Positions 12,992-18,899 of a stretch of 20,348 nt of DNA are shown here, piece after piece. The first letter of the stretch is position 1, and every line of letters starts with the position of its first letter. The notes below the pieces were generated by a model. The model was not told the origin of the DNA and made no database searches. It saw only the letters and a list, made by a program, of their open reading frames with translations. Made by a program: the position numbers and the translations under genes. The stretch comes from a virus. The stretch is from IMG/VR virus record IMGVR_UViG_3300043570_000966, positions 1-20,348 of that record. One strand, written 5' to 3'.

Positions 12992-15028
12992 TTATTTTAC
13001 CCTCCCTCTTATATCCGAATCCGGAAATTTAATTTCAAAAACCGAAGGGTCTAAAGATGGATATACAATCTTACCTTTAGTTGCCGCTGCTATATTGTAT
13101 GAATTGTTTGCATACTGTCCACCACATTTGTTTGTTATTTCAAACATAGGAACAGAAGCAACACCCTCTACATTTGATATTAATAATTCAACTTCGCTTA
13201 AATTAATAGTTTGGTTGAATGTTAAATTATCCATAGAAAAATATTTCTTTAGTTCCGTTATACAATTGGTAAGTACTTCACTCTTATTATAATTTTTATA
13301 AGTTGATATTTCAAAATCCAAACCAATATTAATTATAAAACCATCGCTTATATTTACACCATCAGTAAGAATCTTATACTCATTTAAATAAGTTTTAAGA
13401 TTTTCTTTTACTGCTCTATTAATATTTGTAAGATTACCATTAATATCATAACCTAACAAATACAAGTTAATTGCAAATGGATTATTTTTTTCATTATCGT
13501 TTGAAGTTTTTCCAACTAAAAAATTTCTTATTTCACTTTGTACAGTTTGTTGATTTGGTTCTTCTGTATCTGGTTTGTTTATAAAACTCATAACCAAATC
13601 GGTAAATTCTTGCAAATGATTTGGAGATGCCAATATAGATGATGGTGAATTATTATCCAATGTACCATCTGCGGTTGCATATGCTTTAGCTATACCACCA
13701 TATTTTGATGGCATTGATAATACTCTTACTTGATAATCTTTTGCAGTTACTGCTCTATTCTGAGAACCAAAGTTTGCTAATGCATTTTGTCTAATTTCTT
13801 CTATTGTTTCACCACTTCTACCACCAACTGCCGGTACTTCATTATCAACTGCAACAGATGATAAAATTGAATTGTATATAGCTTGTTCAGCTGCAGTTAG
13901 AATAGATACATCATTATCAAATTCAATTGTATCAATTCTTATTAATGTATTTGTTTGAACATTTGATTCAATACCACCACCAATTAAATACTTTACAGTA
14001 ATTTCAGTATTTGCTGGGGATGTTCCGTATGTTTTTGTTTTTAAAAAGTTTGTTGGGTCAAATGATTCTTCCAATCTACTAATAGAGTTTGGTAATCCCA
14101 ATCCAACATTTTTAAGGTTTGGAATCAATTGCTCATCTGATGCAGATGGGTCTCCAGCTCCAAATTGAATAGTAGTTGTACTATCTTGATTTATTTTAGT
14201 TACAAATCTTTTTGGAGTTTTAATTGTTTTTAAAATGTAAGGTACAGTTGATTTAAATTGATATAAATCAGGGTCATTAGCTTCAGTATTAGGATGGTCA
14301 ATAAAAACCATTTCTTGTGCTAAATATGGAACTTCATACCATTTATTTCCGTTTGAATCTCTAACGTCAACTATTTGTATTACATTTGTTTCTTGTAAAT
14401 CTATCTTTTGAAAGTCTGTATAACTTCCGAATGTAAAAGTTTCTTCTACTACAGTTGCTGATATTACTTGTACATATTTTTTTACTAAATATAATGTTGG
14501 TTCTCCTGTAATTCCATCATTTTGATAAACCATAACTTCTCTATCTGTGCTATCAGAGAAATCAACAATGTCTGTTGTTCTAAACATTACATTTTCCAAA
14601 GTTGGTCTGATTTGCATACCTTCCTTTATCCTTAGATAAAATTTTTCATCAGGTTTATTATTTTCACCACTTCCTATTGCTGGTACAAGTTGGTAAACAG
14701 AAAGAGTTGCTACTGCAGGGCTTGTTACTTTTGGTTTATATCCAAGATATTGAGATAATGCCAATACGTTATTTATATCCTCTGCATATACCATCATAGA
14801 TTCTTTCATAGTATCATCTATGTAATATGAAAGAACGTCACCAATATAAGATGCCATTTCGATAAACATCATACCAGGCGATGTTTCATTAAAATCCGAA
14901 TATGTTTTGGGGAAATATGTTTTAGCAAATTCTATTAAGCCATTACGAAATCCTACAAAATCTTTATTAAGATATTTTATATCCTTTCCTTTGTTTTTAA
15001 ATATTTTATTTGTAGTTTGTATTGCCAT
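12992..15028 (-). CDS. Baseplate wedge protein, gp6/J-like (678 aa)
   Basis: This is the main wedge component that polymerises around the hub and couples sheath contraction to baseplate opening. Length is close to T4 gp6 (660 residues). Residues 46-72 (FNETSPGMMFIEMASYIGD and following YYIDD) are the N-terminal wedge motif, and residues 402-440 (GGRSGETIEEIRQNA, then RAVTAKDYQVRVLSMPSKYG) are the baseplate-J signature. Residues 520-630 carry a further conserved alpha/beta region. It lies immediately after the gp25-like gene, the usual W-J order of contractile tails, with an 11-bp gap. The start at 15028 follows an AT-only leader with no Shine-Dalgarno sequence; MAIQTTNKIFKNKGKDIKYL is a typical N-terminus for the marine T4-like version of this family. 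Confidence 0.92.
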   Translation of the reverse strand: MAIQTTNKIFKNKGKDIKYLNKDFVGFRNGLIEFAKTYFPKTYSDFNETSPGMMFIEMASYIGDVLSYYIDDTMKESMMVYAEDINNVLALSQYLGYKPKVTSPAVATLSVYQLVPAIGSGENNKPDEKFYLRIKEGMQIRPTLENVMFRTTDIVDFSDSTDREVMVYQNDGITGEPTLYLVKKYVQVISATVVEETFTFGSYTDFQKIDLQETNVIQIVDVRDSNGNKWYEVPYLAQEMVFIDHPNTEANDPDLYQFKSTVPYILKTIKTPKRFVTKINQDSTTTIQFGAGDPSASDEQLIPNLKNVGLGLPNSISRLEESFDPTNFLKTKTYGTSPANTEITVKYLIGGGIESNVQTNTLIRIDTIEFDNDVSILTAAEQAIYNSILSSVAVDNEVPAVGGRSGETIEEIRQNALANFGSQNRAVTAKDYQVRVLSMPSKYGGIAKAYATADGTLDNNSPSSILASPNHLQEFTDLVMSFINKPDTEEPNQQTVQSEIRNFLVGKTSNDNEKNNPFAINLYLLGYDINGNLTNINRAVKENLKTYLNEYKILTDGVNISDGFIINIGLDFEISTYKNYNKSEVLTNCITELKKYFSMDNLTFNQTINLSEVELLISNVEGVASVPMFEITNKCGGQYANNSYNIAAATKGKIVYPSLDPSVFEIKFPDSDIRGRVK

Positions 15029-15039
15029 TTTTAATTTTA

Positions 15040-15468
15040 TTATGCACCAACATTAAAAGTTACGCTATCTAATTGAGGGTTTCCATTAGATGTAAAAGAT
15101 AAAGATATATTTACTGTATTAGTATCTTTAAGTCTATCATTTATATCCACAACTATTTCCTCTATATTAACATAAGGTAACCATTTATCCATAGTAGATG
15201 TTATTGCATCTTCTATTTGAATTTTAGTATCATCATCAATTTGTTCAAATAATATTTCATCAAGACCACTACCAAATTCAGGTTGCATTAACCTTTCTCC
15301 TTTTTTTGTTTGTAGTAAATTTTTTATATTTGAACGAAGTTGTTCTTTTGTTGTAAATGTTTGATTAAAAGCTGTATTAGTAATTTGAATTGGCAAAGAA
15401 ATACCTATGGCATAATCATTATATGTCGTTGTATCTTTTACTAATTTATTTCCTAATATTATTGCCAT
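15040..15468 (-). CDS. Baseplate wedge initiator, gp25/W-like (142 aa)
   Basis: This is the small GPW/gp25-family wedge protein that nucleates sheath assembly on the baseplate, where it binds gp6/J. Length fits the family (T4 gp25 is 132 residues). The diagnostic core is at residues 47-74: NIKNLLQTKKGERLMQPEFG followed by SGLDEILFE. That is the conserved segment with a Gly-Glu-Arg turn and Pro-Glu-Phe-Gly. Despite the old name 'gp25 lysozyme', no lytic activity is implied. The start overlaps the upstream stop as TAATG at 15466-15470, so translation is probably coupled to the 166-aa gene. Confidence 0.93.
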   Translation of the reverse strand: MAIILGNKLVKDTTTYNDYAIGISLPIQITNTAFNQTFTTKEQLRSNIKNLLQTKKGERLMQPEFGSGLDEILFEQIDDDTKIQIEDAITSTMDKWLPYVNIEEIVVDINDRLKDTNTVNISLSFTSNGNPQLDSVTFNVGA

Positions 15469-16029: not shown

Positions 16030-17091
16030 CTAAACTGGGGCAATAACGTAGAATCCCCAATACTCCCAATGCCACATTTCATCAACACCACCACCATCTG
16101 CTAATCTAGCTGGATTATACCAACCATATTTAGGTCCATTATTAGATAACCACCTATATAAAGATGATTTTTCTCTACCTGCTTTATTGATAGCGGGATT
16201 ACCACTACCTCCAACTTGTTGATATAATTCTGAAAAATCAAGTGCAACTCCCCAACCATGTGGAGATTTACCAGGTGCAGCAACAGTTGGTCTTGGTTTA
16301 CCACCTTGGATGCTAAGTTGGTGTGCAACACTTCTATATGCAGATGAAACAGTCCATTGAACCTTAGCATCTAATGCTGCTTTTTTTAATTTAAAATATT
16401 GTTGAGCTGCCTCTGGGTGTAATAAATACTTACCACCATATTCTGCACGACCACCACCTGCAATTGCAGTCATTGCTGTAATTGGAATATATCCGTTAGT
16501 ATATTGTCCACGAAAAATAGGTGGTGCTACAACTGCAGTTGCTCCAACTTTACCATGTATTACAGGCGGCGGTCCTAAATCACCTGCGGGGAATGTTCCC
16601 AATGCACCTGCTGCTCCAGGTTGTTGCCCAAATCTAAAAGGTTGTGTTTTTGTTTTAAATTTTTCTTTTTTTGGTGGGAAATCCCCCGGATCATCCACTG
16701 ATTCAACAGGAGGTTTTTGTGCAAGTAAGTCCTCATCAACAATAACCTCTCTACTTAAAGTTATTTGTTCTTCTTTTGGTGGTATTGTCTCATCTGCTTC
16801 TGTTATAACATTATTTCTTTCATCGTGTTCTTTTGCATCTCTACCATCAACAGGTGGTGCATCATCCCCAGTTTCCTCAGTAGCATCTTCTTCGTCCGAA
16901 TTGAGTGATTGTTGAGGGCCATCTACAGTATAACCAGTCCATTGAACTACACCCGGTGATGGAGTTCCCAATGGTGGATATAATGAAACTGTATTTACTA
17001 TACCAGATACAGTTGCCAAATGAGATTGTGCATACTGAATAAAATCATTTACAATTAATTCGGGATTATTTGTTGGTTGTAATGCTGACAT
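16030..17091 (-). CDS. Virion M15-type zinc D-Ala-D-Ala peptidase, second copy (353 aa)
   Basis: This is a predicted peptidoglycan peptidase (VanY-like, M15 family) that would cleave stem peptides or cross-links during DNA entry. Catalytic parts are intact: SAYR with R253, SPHGWGVALD with zinc ligands H278 and D285, and DEMWHWEYWG with catalytic E338 and zinc ligand H341. N-terminal residues 1-60 form a small helix/loop head unlike the other copy. Residues 65-108 are very acidic. Residues 111-155 form the conserved linker shared with the 600-aa paralogue (AQKPPVESVDDPGDFPPKKE). The protein ends 12 residues after the WHWEYW motif, so it lacks the hydrolase-like extension of its paralogue. It starts five bases after the upstream stop, with no Shine-Dalgarno sequence. 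There is no signal peptide or hydrophobic segment, as expected for a virion protein rather than an exported lysin; an endolysin role is less likely in this position. Confidence 0.88.
   Translation of the reverse strand: MSALQPTNNPELIVNDFIQYAQSHLATVSGIVNTVSLYPPLGTPSPGVVQWTGYTVDGPQQSLNSDEEDATEETGDDAPPVDGRDAKEHDERNNVITEADETIPPKEEQITLSREVIVDEDLLAQKPPVESVDDPGDFPPKKEKFKTKTQPFRFGQQPGAAGALGTFPAGDLGPPPVIHGKVGATAVVAPPIFRGQYTNGYIPITAMTAIAGGGRAEYGGKYLLHPEAAQQYFKLKKAALDAKVQWTVSSAYRSVAHQLSIQGGKPRPTVAAPGKSPHGWGVALDFSELYQQVGGSGNPAINKAGREKSSLYRWLSNNGPKYGWYNPARLADGGGVDEMWHWEYWGFYVIAPV
16627..16761 (-). repeat. Conserved linker repeat in peptidase copy 2
   Basis: This segment encodes residues 111-155 and matches 18222-18359 in the paralogous gene with only a few differences, including a 33-bp exact match (16648-16680 with 18243-18275). 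The protein segments differ at three substitutions plus one extra Asp. It is markedly more alike in DNA than the catalytic domains downstream. Confidence 0.9.
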
Positions 17092-17096
17092 AGTTA

Positions 17097-18899
17097 TTAT
17101 AATTTGTGTCCATATAATTGGAAAAATTTAGCAGGAATTGCGGAATGGTTTAGTGAAACTTTTACAGCGTTTGCTCCCAAATATCCAGCTGCTGTTACTT
17201 GTCTTTCACCTATTGCTTTATATTTATTATTCCAGTTTCCATTATTATAATACATAACAACACCGCTCCAATTTGCCGCCGATACACTTGCCGAAGCAAC
17301 TGCTTTTTCACTTGTAGATGGGTCTATTAAACCAGTAAATTTATATTTTCCAGCATGCGGCCAAGTTTGATTACCTCCTGCAGAAAACCCACTTACCGAA
17401 TTTACAGTTATTCCTTTAAATTTAACCAATATAGTTTCCAATGGTATTGTATATGGTGCTATTATAATTTTTTTAGAATTTTTAAGTTCTTGTGGAATTT
17501 GCTGAGCCATCCAACTTGGTGTTGCAAAATCAATACCACCCCATATAATAGCAGTTGGTAAGTTTTTATCAATATTAAATGTTACATAATCGCCTGTACT
17601 TGTTTCCGTTGATGATTTTGGTGGGTTTACTGCCCAATGTCCCCAATATTCCCAATGCCACATCTCATCAACTGTTCCAGCATTATCTGCTAATCTATAT
17701 GGATTATACCACCCAAATTGAGGTGCGTTATTTGATAACCATCTATATAAGGCTGAACGTTCCCTACCTGCTTTATTAATTGCAGGACTTCCACTACCTC
17801 CAACTTCTGCATATAATTCTGCAAAATCAATAGCCCCGCCCCAACCATGCGGTGAACTACCTGCACTGGCCACAGTAGCTCTTTTTTTATCACCTATCAA
17901 TTCCGTCTGATGTGCAAAGTCTCTATAAGCTGATGATATAGTCCATCGAATACCCGCTGCTAGTGCTGCAGTTTTTAATTTAAAATATTGACTAGCTGCT
18001 TCTGGGTGTAGTAACATCCAACCCGCAGTTCCGTTGTAAGTGTACCTAGGACGACTTCCTTTTTCAATACCAACTAAAGCCGTTAAAGGAATATATGCAT
18101 TTTTATAGTTTTTTCTAAAATCATCTGCACCTGGATATGCAGTTGCGCCTATACTACCATATACTTTTGGAGCCGGTCCCAAATTACCGGGGGGATATGC
18201 TCCGGGAGGAGTACCAGTTGCACCAAATCTAAAAGGTTGTGATTTTGTTTTAAATTTTTCTTTTTTTGGTGGGAAGTCACCGGGGTCATCAACAGCTTCA
18301 ACAGGTGGTTTTTGTGCAAGTAAGTCCTCATCATCAACAATAACTTCTCTAGTTAAAGTTATTTCTTCTGATTTCGATTCTACCGATTCGCCTGCTTCAA
18401 TTATAACATCATTTCTTTCTTCATATTGTTCTTTTTCCCTACCTTCGATAACTGGAGTATCGTCCGCATTACCAGCTTCATCTGTTTCAACTTCATCCGA
18501 ACCTGCTTTTGATATGGATGTTTGCCATTGCCCCACATTTGTAACAACATTGGTTGTAACAGATACATTTTGAGTTGAACCAACTGCTGGTATTTTTGGT
18601 ATTGGATATTGATTTAATGTTGCGCCTGCCCAATATGCTTTAACACCCTCACCCATTTGCCCAACTAAATCATATGGTTCTTTTGATGTAAGGCCTTTTT
18701 CTAAAGCTGCCTTAAACATTTGTTTCATAATATCAACATTACCACGCATCAACGCAACATTGTTTATGGTATCATGTCCTCTTTTTATAGCAGCATCGTA
18801 TTCTGTTGCATATAAATTAGCCACAGTATCCGTATCGGGTATACCATCTGGATTATTAGCTACTCTTAATATATTTTGTTTAAATATCTCCCAAGACAT
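17097..18899 (-). CDS. Virion M15-type peptidase fused to an alpha/beta-hydrolase-like domain (600 aa)
   Basis: The N-terminal 1-95 is a helical head (MSWEIFKQNILRVANNPDGI) that could dock on the hub; 96-130 is a Thr/Val-rich stretch and 133-178 is acidic. The conserved linker is at 181-226. The M15 peptidase domain spans about 290-420: SAYRDFAHQ with R326, SPHGWGGAID with H351 and D358, and DEMWHWEYWG with E412 and H415, so metal-binding and catalytic residues are present. Residues about 440-600 are an added domain: a strand ending IIWGG (451-455, possible oxyanion site), the nucleophile elbow GFSAG (504-508, Ser506), Asp526 in GLIDP, and His585 in VSLNHSAIP. The strand/helix order fits a small alpha/beta-hydrolase of about 160 residues, and Asp after the strand following the elbow occurs in some lipases. 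A peptide plus ester/lipid target in the envelope is inference. The start overlaps the gp5-like stop by TAATG. Confidence 0.85.
   Translation of the reverse strand: MSWEIFKQNILRVANNPDGIPDTDTVANLYATEYDAAIKRGHDTINNVALMRGNVDIMKQMFKAALEKGLTSKEPYDLVGQMGEGVKAYWAGATLNQYPIPKIPAVGSTQNVSVTTNVVTNVGQWQTSISKAGSDEVETDEAGNADDTPVIEGREKEQYEERNDVIIEAGESVESKSEEITLTREVIVDDEDLLAQKPPVEAVDDPGDFPPKKEKFKTKSQPFRFGATGTPPGAYPPGNLGPAPKVYGSIGATAYPGADDFRKNYKNAYIPLTALVGIEKGSRPRYTYNGTAGWMLLHPEAASQYFKLKTAALAAGIRWTISSAYRDFAHQTELIGDKKRATVASAGSSPHGWGGAIDFAELYAEVGGSGSPAINKAGRERSALYRWLSNNAPQFGWYNPYRLADNAGTVDEMWHWEYWGHWAVNPPKSSTETSTGDYVTFNIDKNLPTAIIWGGIDFATPSWMAQQIPQELKNSKKIIIAPYTIPLETILVKFKGITVNSVSGFSAGGNQTWPHAGKYKFTGLIDPSTSEKAVASASVSAANWSGVVMYYNNGNWNNKYKAIGERQVTAAGYLGANAVKVSLNHSAIPAKFFQLYGHKL
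18222..18359 (-). repeat. Conserved linker repeat in peptidase copy 1
   Basis: This segment encodes residues 181-226 and is the partner of 16627-16761. It carries one additional Asp codon in the Asp run (VDDEDLL versus VDEDLL). It joins variable N-terminal heads to the catalytic domains in both paralogues. Confidence 0.9.

Follow-up and report, generated by a model that had tools for sequence, protein, structure and literature searches.

Lysins that are carried in the virion are, to our knowledge, mostly peptidoglycan hydrolases alone. In T4 gp5 and other myovirus virion-associated lysins, a peptidoglycan-cutting enzyme is encoded in the baseplate cluster near the gp25 and gp6 homologues, and the gene of the 600-aa protein described here has the same placement. 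The protein differs from the gp5-type lysins in that its peptidase is an M15 zinc enzyme joined to a second, serine-hydrolase domain, and in that its putative docking domain had no detected relative of known structure. The other relevant system is LysB, the mycolylarabinogalactan esterase, which is a phage alpha/beta-hydrolase aimed at the envelope, as the present domain would be. However, LysB is a separate lysis enzyme, whereas this domain sits in a tail cluster, comprises about 150-160 aa and has its acid at beta6. LysB of phage Ms6 has an N-terminal peptidoglycan-binding region (PMC8309991), an arrangement comparable with that in one of the viral contigs examined below (L046). No sequence kinship between LysB and the hydrolase domain was detected by tblastn among 50,697 phage records, while the fold search is compatible with kinship. 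No description of an M15 peptidase fused to an alpha/beta-hydrolase was found in the open-access literature. LysB is the nearest known idea, and we infer that a virion-associated lysin has here gained a module from a phage hydrolase family outside the reference libraries searched.

Domain layout and the M15 peptidase

The stretch of viral DNA that was analyzed (the window) is 20,348 nucleotides long, and the positions of the relevant features are given in Table 1. The original prediction had located the hydrolase motifs and domain correctly: nucleotides 17097-17582 of the minus strand encode residues 440-600 plus the stop codon, with IIWGG at 451-455, GFSAGG at 504-509 (S506), GLIDPS at 523-528 (D526) and H585. 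It had also placed a complete M15 domain ahead of the hydrolase, and the features by which M15 (VanY) membership is judged were all found in residues 296-420; the match to PF02557, the sole Pfam domain identified in the ORF, scored 69.3 bits against a cut-off of 25, the zinc signature S-x-H-x6-D was intact (SSPHGWGGAIDF, residues 348-359) and the H-x-E element was HWE (residues 415-417). The 600-aa ORF recurred in two further viral contigs, in one of them with the 3' half alone, indicating that an assembly chimera is unlikely.

Table 1. Positions in the window of the 600-aa protein gene, its domains and catalytic codons, and related or neighboring genes
Feature	Position	Strand	Description or evidence
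600-aa ORF	17097..18899	minus	N-terminal domain, low-complexity linker, M15/VanY peptidase, alpha/beta-hydrolase
N-terminal domain, residues 1-125 (about)	18525..18899	minus	Probable docking domain
M15/VanY peptidase domain, residues 296-420	17640..18014	minus	PF02557, E=3.7e-19
Alpha/beta-hydrolase domain, residues about 440-600 plus stop	17097..17582	minus	AlphaFold2, Foldseek, VIA-align, family conservation
Ser506 codon, nucleophile elbow GFSAGG	17382..17384	minus	Invariant, 57/57
Asp526 codon, GLIDPS, proposed catalytic acid	17322..17324	minus	Invariant, 56/56
His585 codon, proposed catalytic base after strand beta8	17145..17147	minus	Invariant, 55/55
353-aa paralogue, M15 without hydrolase	16030..17091	minus	PF02557, E=3.1e-16, residues 223-346
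gp25-like baseplate wedge protein	15040..15468	minus	phrog_261, E=2.3e-23
gp6-like baseplate wedge protein	12992..15028	minus	phrog_219, E=1.3e-16

The paralogue does stop just after its peptidase, as had been read from the sequence, with the M15 domain at 223-346 and the protein end at 353. The linker and M15 domain of the 600-aa and 353-aa proteins were about 61% identical while their N-termini differed, which suggests copying of a linker-peptidase piece from one of the genes to the other (window 16030-18899). The order of events in the movement of the hydrolase between the two M15 genes was not resolved by the M15-domain tree. A related M15 domain (44% identity) was observed at the C-terminus of a 1014-aa protein in another contig (L028, 380-3421), a different carrier of the peptidase.

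Fold, catalytic residues and relatives of the hydrolase domain

An AlphaFold2 model of the hydrolase domain built with 12 family members had a pLDDT of 88.8 and a pTM of 0.87, with strands and helices in alpha/beta-hydrolase order; the fold, the G-x-Ser-x-G elbow and the His after beta8 by which the superfamily is recognized were all present in it. The best Foldseek matches in the PDB were EstA, S-formylglutathione hydrolases and a feruloyl esterase (E down to 4e-5), and the neighborhood also included acylaminoacyl peptidase, DPP8 and a mycoloyltransferase. Structural comparison of the model with VIA-align 2 gave a best Z of 15.2 (169 residues aligned, 3.0 A), and 952 of the 1000 aligned PDB chains had a Z of at least 8. 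Esterase D, S-formylglutathione hydrolase and CE1-type feruloyl and acetyl-xylan esterases were the top structural neighbors (Z 13-15 over about 170 residues), and the leading entries lay within about 1 Z of each other, so that no one enzyme family stood out as the closest. These neighbors were only 7-14% identical to the phage domain and larger by about 80-180 residues, and the phage domain matched no CE1 or esterase D model of Pfam or NCBIfam at the family cut-off. The alpha/beta-hydrolase fold that had been proposed was therefore supported by a confident model with esterase-type structural neighbors.

In the model, Ser506 (model residue 79) was in the elbow that joins beta5 (strand 72-79) to helix 82-88, Asp526 (model residue 99) at the end of beta6 (strand 94-100), and His585 (model residue 158) in the loop and helix start following beta8 (strand 150-153). 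The proposed Ser-Asp-His order was supported by both the model and the family alignment. At the beta7 acid position (after strand 120-124), no conserved Asp or Glu was present among the relatives, and the group A placement of the acid was thus absent. Alpha/beta-hydrolases in which the catalytic acid closes strand beta6 are known as "group B" (PMC7034887), and the modeled domain fits this group, with Ser after beta5, Asp526 at the end of beta6 and His after beta8. The assignment of Asp526 as the acid stood, the residue being invariant, while its site was refined to the end of beta6 and not after beta7. No solved group B enzyme with sequence similarity to the domain was found. W556 (window 17232-17234), which follows beta7 near the usual acid site, was also invariant in the family.

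The first relatives to be found in a scan of uncultured viral contigs were M15 fusions at 61-63% identity (L006-L008), and a further scan gave relatives of the hydrolase domain at about 35% identity. A wider scan of uncultured viral contigs yielded 87 relatives, 80 of which were kept, and 57 non-identical encoding ORFs were extracted, the most distant about 25% identical. Conservation of the three proposed catalytic residues among homologues was complete in the alignment of these 57 relatives (Table 1), in which Gly455 (the WGG glycine, 56/56), Trp556 (55/55) and GF-S-x-GG did not vary either; Ser506, Asp526 and His585 were the sole fully conserved Ser, acid and His of the domain. An alignment of 41 members, 24-63% identical to the window domain, agreed with this result. 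In pairs at 85-90% identity, dN/dS was 0.07-0.10, indicating purifying selection. Conservation, purifying selection and the confident predicted fold confirmed that the observation was more than chance, and residues 440-600 are almost certainly a serine alpha/beta-hydrolase that is predicted to be active.

The hydrolase domain alone had no tblastn match in the 50,697 phage records, residues 440-600 had no match above cut-off in Pfam, NCBIfam or PHROGs, a domain-only phmmer search of the PDB returned no usable match, and profiles built from either four or 41 family members found nothing significant among PDB sequences. Two pattern-based scans of bacterial genomes, which could miss distant relatives, found no relative of the hydrolase. 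Matches of the window domain to Tad_C and AUDH_beta_propeller were weak; they did not reach the cut-off and disagreed with the fold. A tblastn match to Staphylococcus phage vB_SpsX-DS12 (E=0.04) fell within a tail-like ORF that lacked the motifs, and it was attributed to chance. By these sequence comparisons, none of Pfam, NCBIfam and PHROGs holds the family, and only viral members have been found so far.

The baseplate slot and other settings of the hydrolase domain

The genes of the gp25 and gp6 homologues follow the 600-aa gene in the same direction, within a series of genes on the minus strand. Among cultured phages, the gp6-like protein was closest to proteins of Microcystis phage Mel-JY01 (43%) and Flavobacterium phages immuto (37%). 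In Mel-JY01 an annotated chitinase is encoded two genes before the gp25-like gene, the slot that is held in the window by the M15 paralogue, and the same slot order was observed in related contigs and in Mel-JY01. The N-terminal domain of the 600-aa protein (about residues 1-125) was shared, at 59-75%, by proteins that carry CHAP in the baseplate clusters of related phages; the proteins with this domain carry either CHAP (L007, L008, L009) or an M15_4 peptidase (L018). The model of this domain was of moderate quality (pLDDT 68) and had no match in the PDB. The baseplate slot appears to hold exchangeable wall-degrading enzymes, which argues for an entry role of the 600-aa protein, and gene position and domain company suggest that the protein is in the virion and acts at entry.

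The hydrolase domain was found in six settings. It was fused to M15 in baseplate clusters in the window and in L006-L008, where it is carried on the other M15 gene, and to a different, M15-like peptidase in L099, L105 and L106. The matches of the latter peptidases to PF13539 (E=0.003 in L099 and E=0.0009 in L105) and, in the family scan, to VanY (E=0.036 in L106, weak) were below the curated cut-offs; S-N-H-x6-D and HIEF motifs were visible in the three sequences. A possible, more divergent peptidase without Pfam support precedes the hydrolase in L096. In L046 the domain follows a weak PG_binding_1-like segment (E=0.08), and in L038-L040 it forms the C-terminus of a 376-aa protein near gp25- and gp6-like genes. 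Identity of the N-terminus of the L038 protein with the hub protein of the 410-aa ORF of the window was considered and was unsupported by BLASTP or hhalign. Stand-alone proteins of 175-182 aa were encoded in a cluster before the tail sheath gene (L033-L037, L042, L102). Outside tail clusters there were further stand-alone proteins, of about 150 aa, whose neighbors were terminase, nuclease-like and uncharacterized genes. The terminase of the one phage of this last group that was tested (L064) had its nearest relatives in Flavobacterium and Cellulophaga phages. Several of the small hydrolases (L057 5992-6432, L065 4348-4797 and relatives) had 147-150 aa, which looks unusually short for the alpha/beta-hydrolase fold.

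The hydrolase had been described as a module added to the peptidase, and this held; however, the fusion is not unique to the locus, as L006-L008 and, with the different M15-like peptidase, L099, L105 and L106 show. The two kinds of fusion fell in separate, well-supported clades of the hydrolase tree (99/95 and 100/99; some long branches were uncertain), which favors two separate occasions on which the hydrolase was joined to M15-like domains. As a separate observation, a similar short leader was present on hydrolase fusions and many neighboring ORFs in L105, L106, L099, L046, L102 and L096. Examples from the viral contigs are MKRLIISESEKK, MRVIITESQKK, MKILVTESQYK and MRRTVRLTESDLVKLVKRV, which share an (I/L/V)-x-E step that we take to resemble the T4 prohead-protease cut site; by this analogy, the leader-bearing proteins could be packaged propeptides.

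Proposed role and alternative explanations

Cleavage of peptidoglycan stem peptides is a known activity of the M15 family. We consider it fairly likely that the 600-aa protein is a virion-associated lysin, combining a zinc peptidase with a serine esterase, of a T4-like myovirus baseplate cluster. The N-terminal domain would dock the protein to the baseplate, and the zinc M15 peptidase would cut the stem peptides. The C-terminal 160 residues would act as a minimal serine hydrolase with a Ser506-Asp526-His585 triad, its oxyanion hole made up of the WGG loop that follows beta3 and the residue that follows Ser506. This hydrolase would most likely cleave an envelope ester in or near the peptidoglycan layer at the moment of entry, for which O-acetyl groups on glycan or surface polysaccharide, lipid esters and lipoprotein esters are candidate substrates. 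Judged from gene position and domain company, the peptidase and the hydrolase probably cut two different envelope bonds at entry.

Against the virion-lysin reading, most relatives by number stand alone outside tail clusters (of the 55 domains in the hydrolase tree, 35 are small proteins of about 150 aa encoded away from tail genes), indicating that not every phage uses the hydrolase domain for entry. The same count favors a true serine hydrolase that works on a small molecule, lipid or thioester inside the cell or at lysis, with the M15 fusion as a side branch of mainly intracellular phage enzymes. The stand-alone proteins start at or near the first core strand of the domain and thus have no obvious signal peptide, which is also in line with an intracellular enzyme. 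However, every remaining branch either lies in a baseplate or neck-sheath cluster or is fused to an M15-like domain, two separate clades pair the hydrolase with such domains, and some of the small-protein phages have putative secreted or holin-like ORFs at a distance of 2-4 kb; we therefore regard the intracellular or lysis role as unlikely.

The chemistry bears on two further explanations. No Pfam alpha/beta-hydrolase model passes its cut-off, and the bond that is cleaved does not follow from fold similarity alone; the peptidase, amidase or acyltransferase-type enzymes among the fold neighbors (acylaminoacyl peptidase, DPP8 and mycoloyltransferase) would agree with a domain that cuts, for example, a second amide bond. 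The best structural neighbors were nevertheless carboxyl- and thioesterases, and such an activity seems still less probable than the intracellular one. That the domain is a former hydrolase retained for binding or structure would be in keeping with its very small size, the lack of a lid domain and the lack of a conserved acid at the usual beta7 position. The Ser, Asp, His and oxyanion-loop glycine were, however, invariant across the relatives, an acid at beta6 is a known alternative (PMC7034887) and purifying selection was strong; with an invariant triad, a dead enzyme is very improbable.

Beyond this locus, the virion-lysin reading can be extended, tentatively and with somewhat more doubt than confidence, to the family as a whole. 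It may be a virus-specific family of minimal (~150 aa) group B alpha/beta-hydrolases that acts, mainly in phages of Bacteroidota-like hosts, as an envelope-ester-cutting module; M15-like peptidases, peptidoglycan-binding segments and baseplate proteins would each have acquired it, repeatedly giving two-bond lysins for Gram-negative entry. With only 147-150 aa, the small stand-alone relatives lend themselves well to testing. If true, a serine esterase coupled to a peptidase would point to a second bond that needs to be cleaved at entry, and many viral genes that now lack annotation would gain a name and an activity that can be tested.
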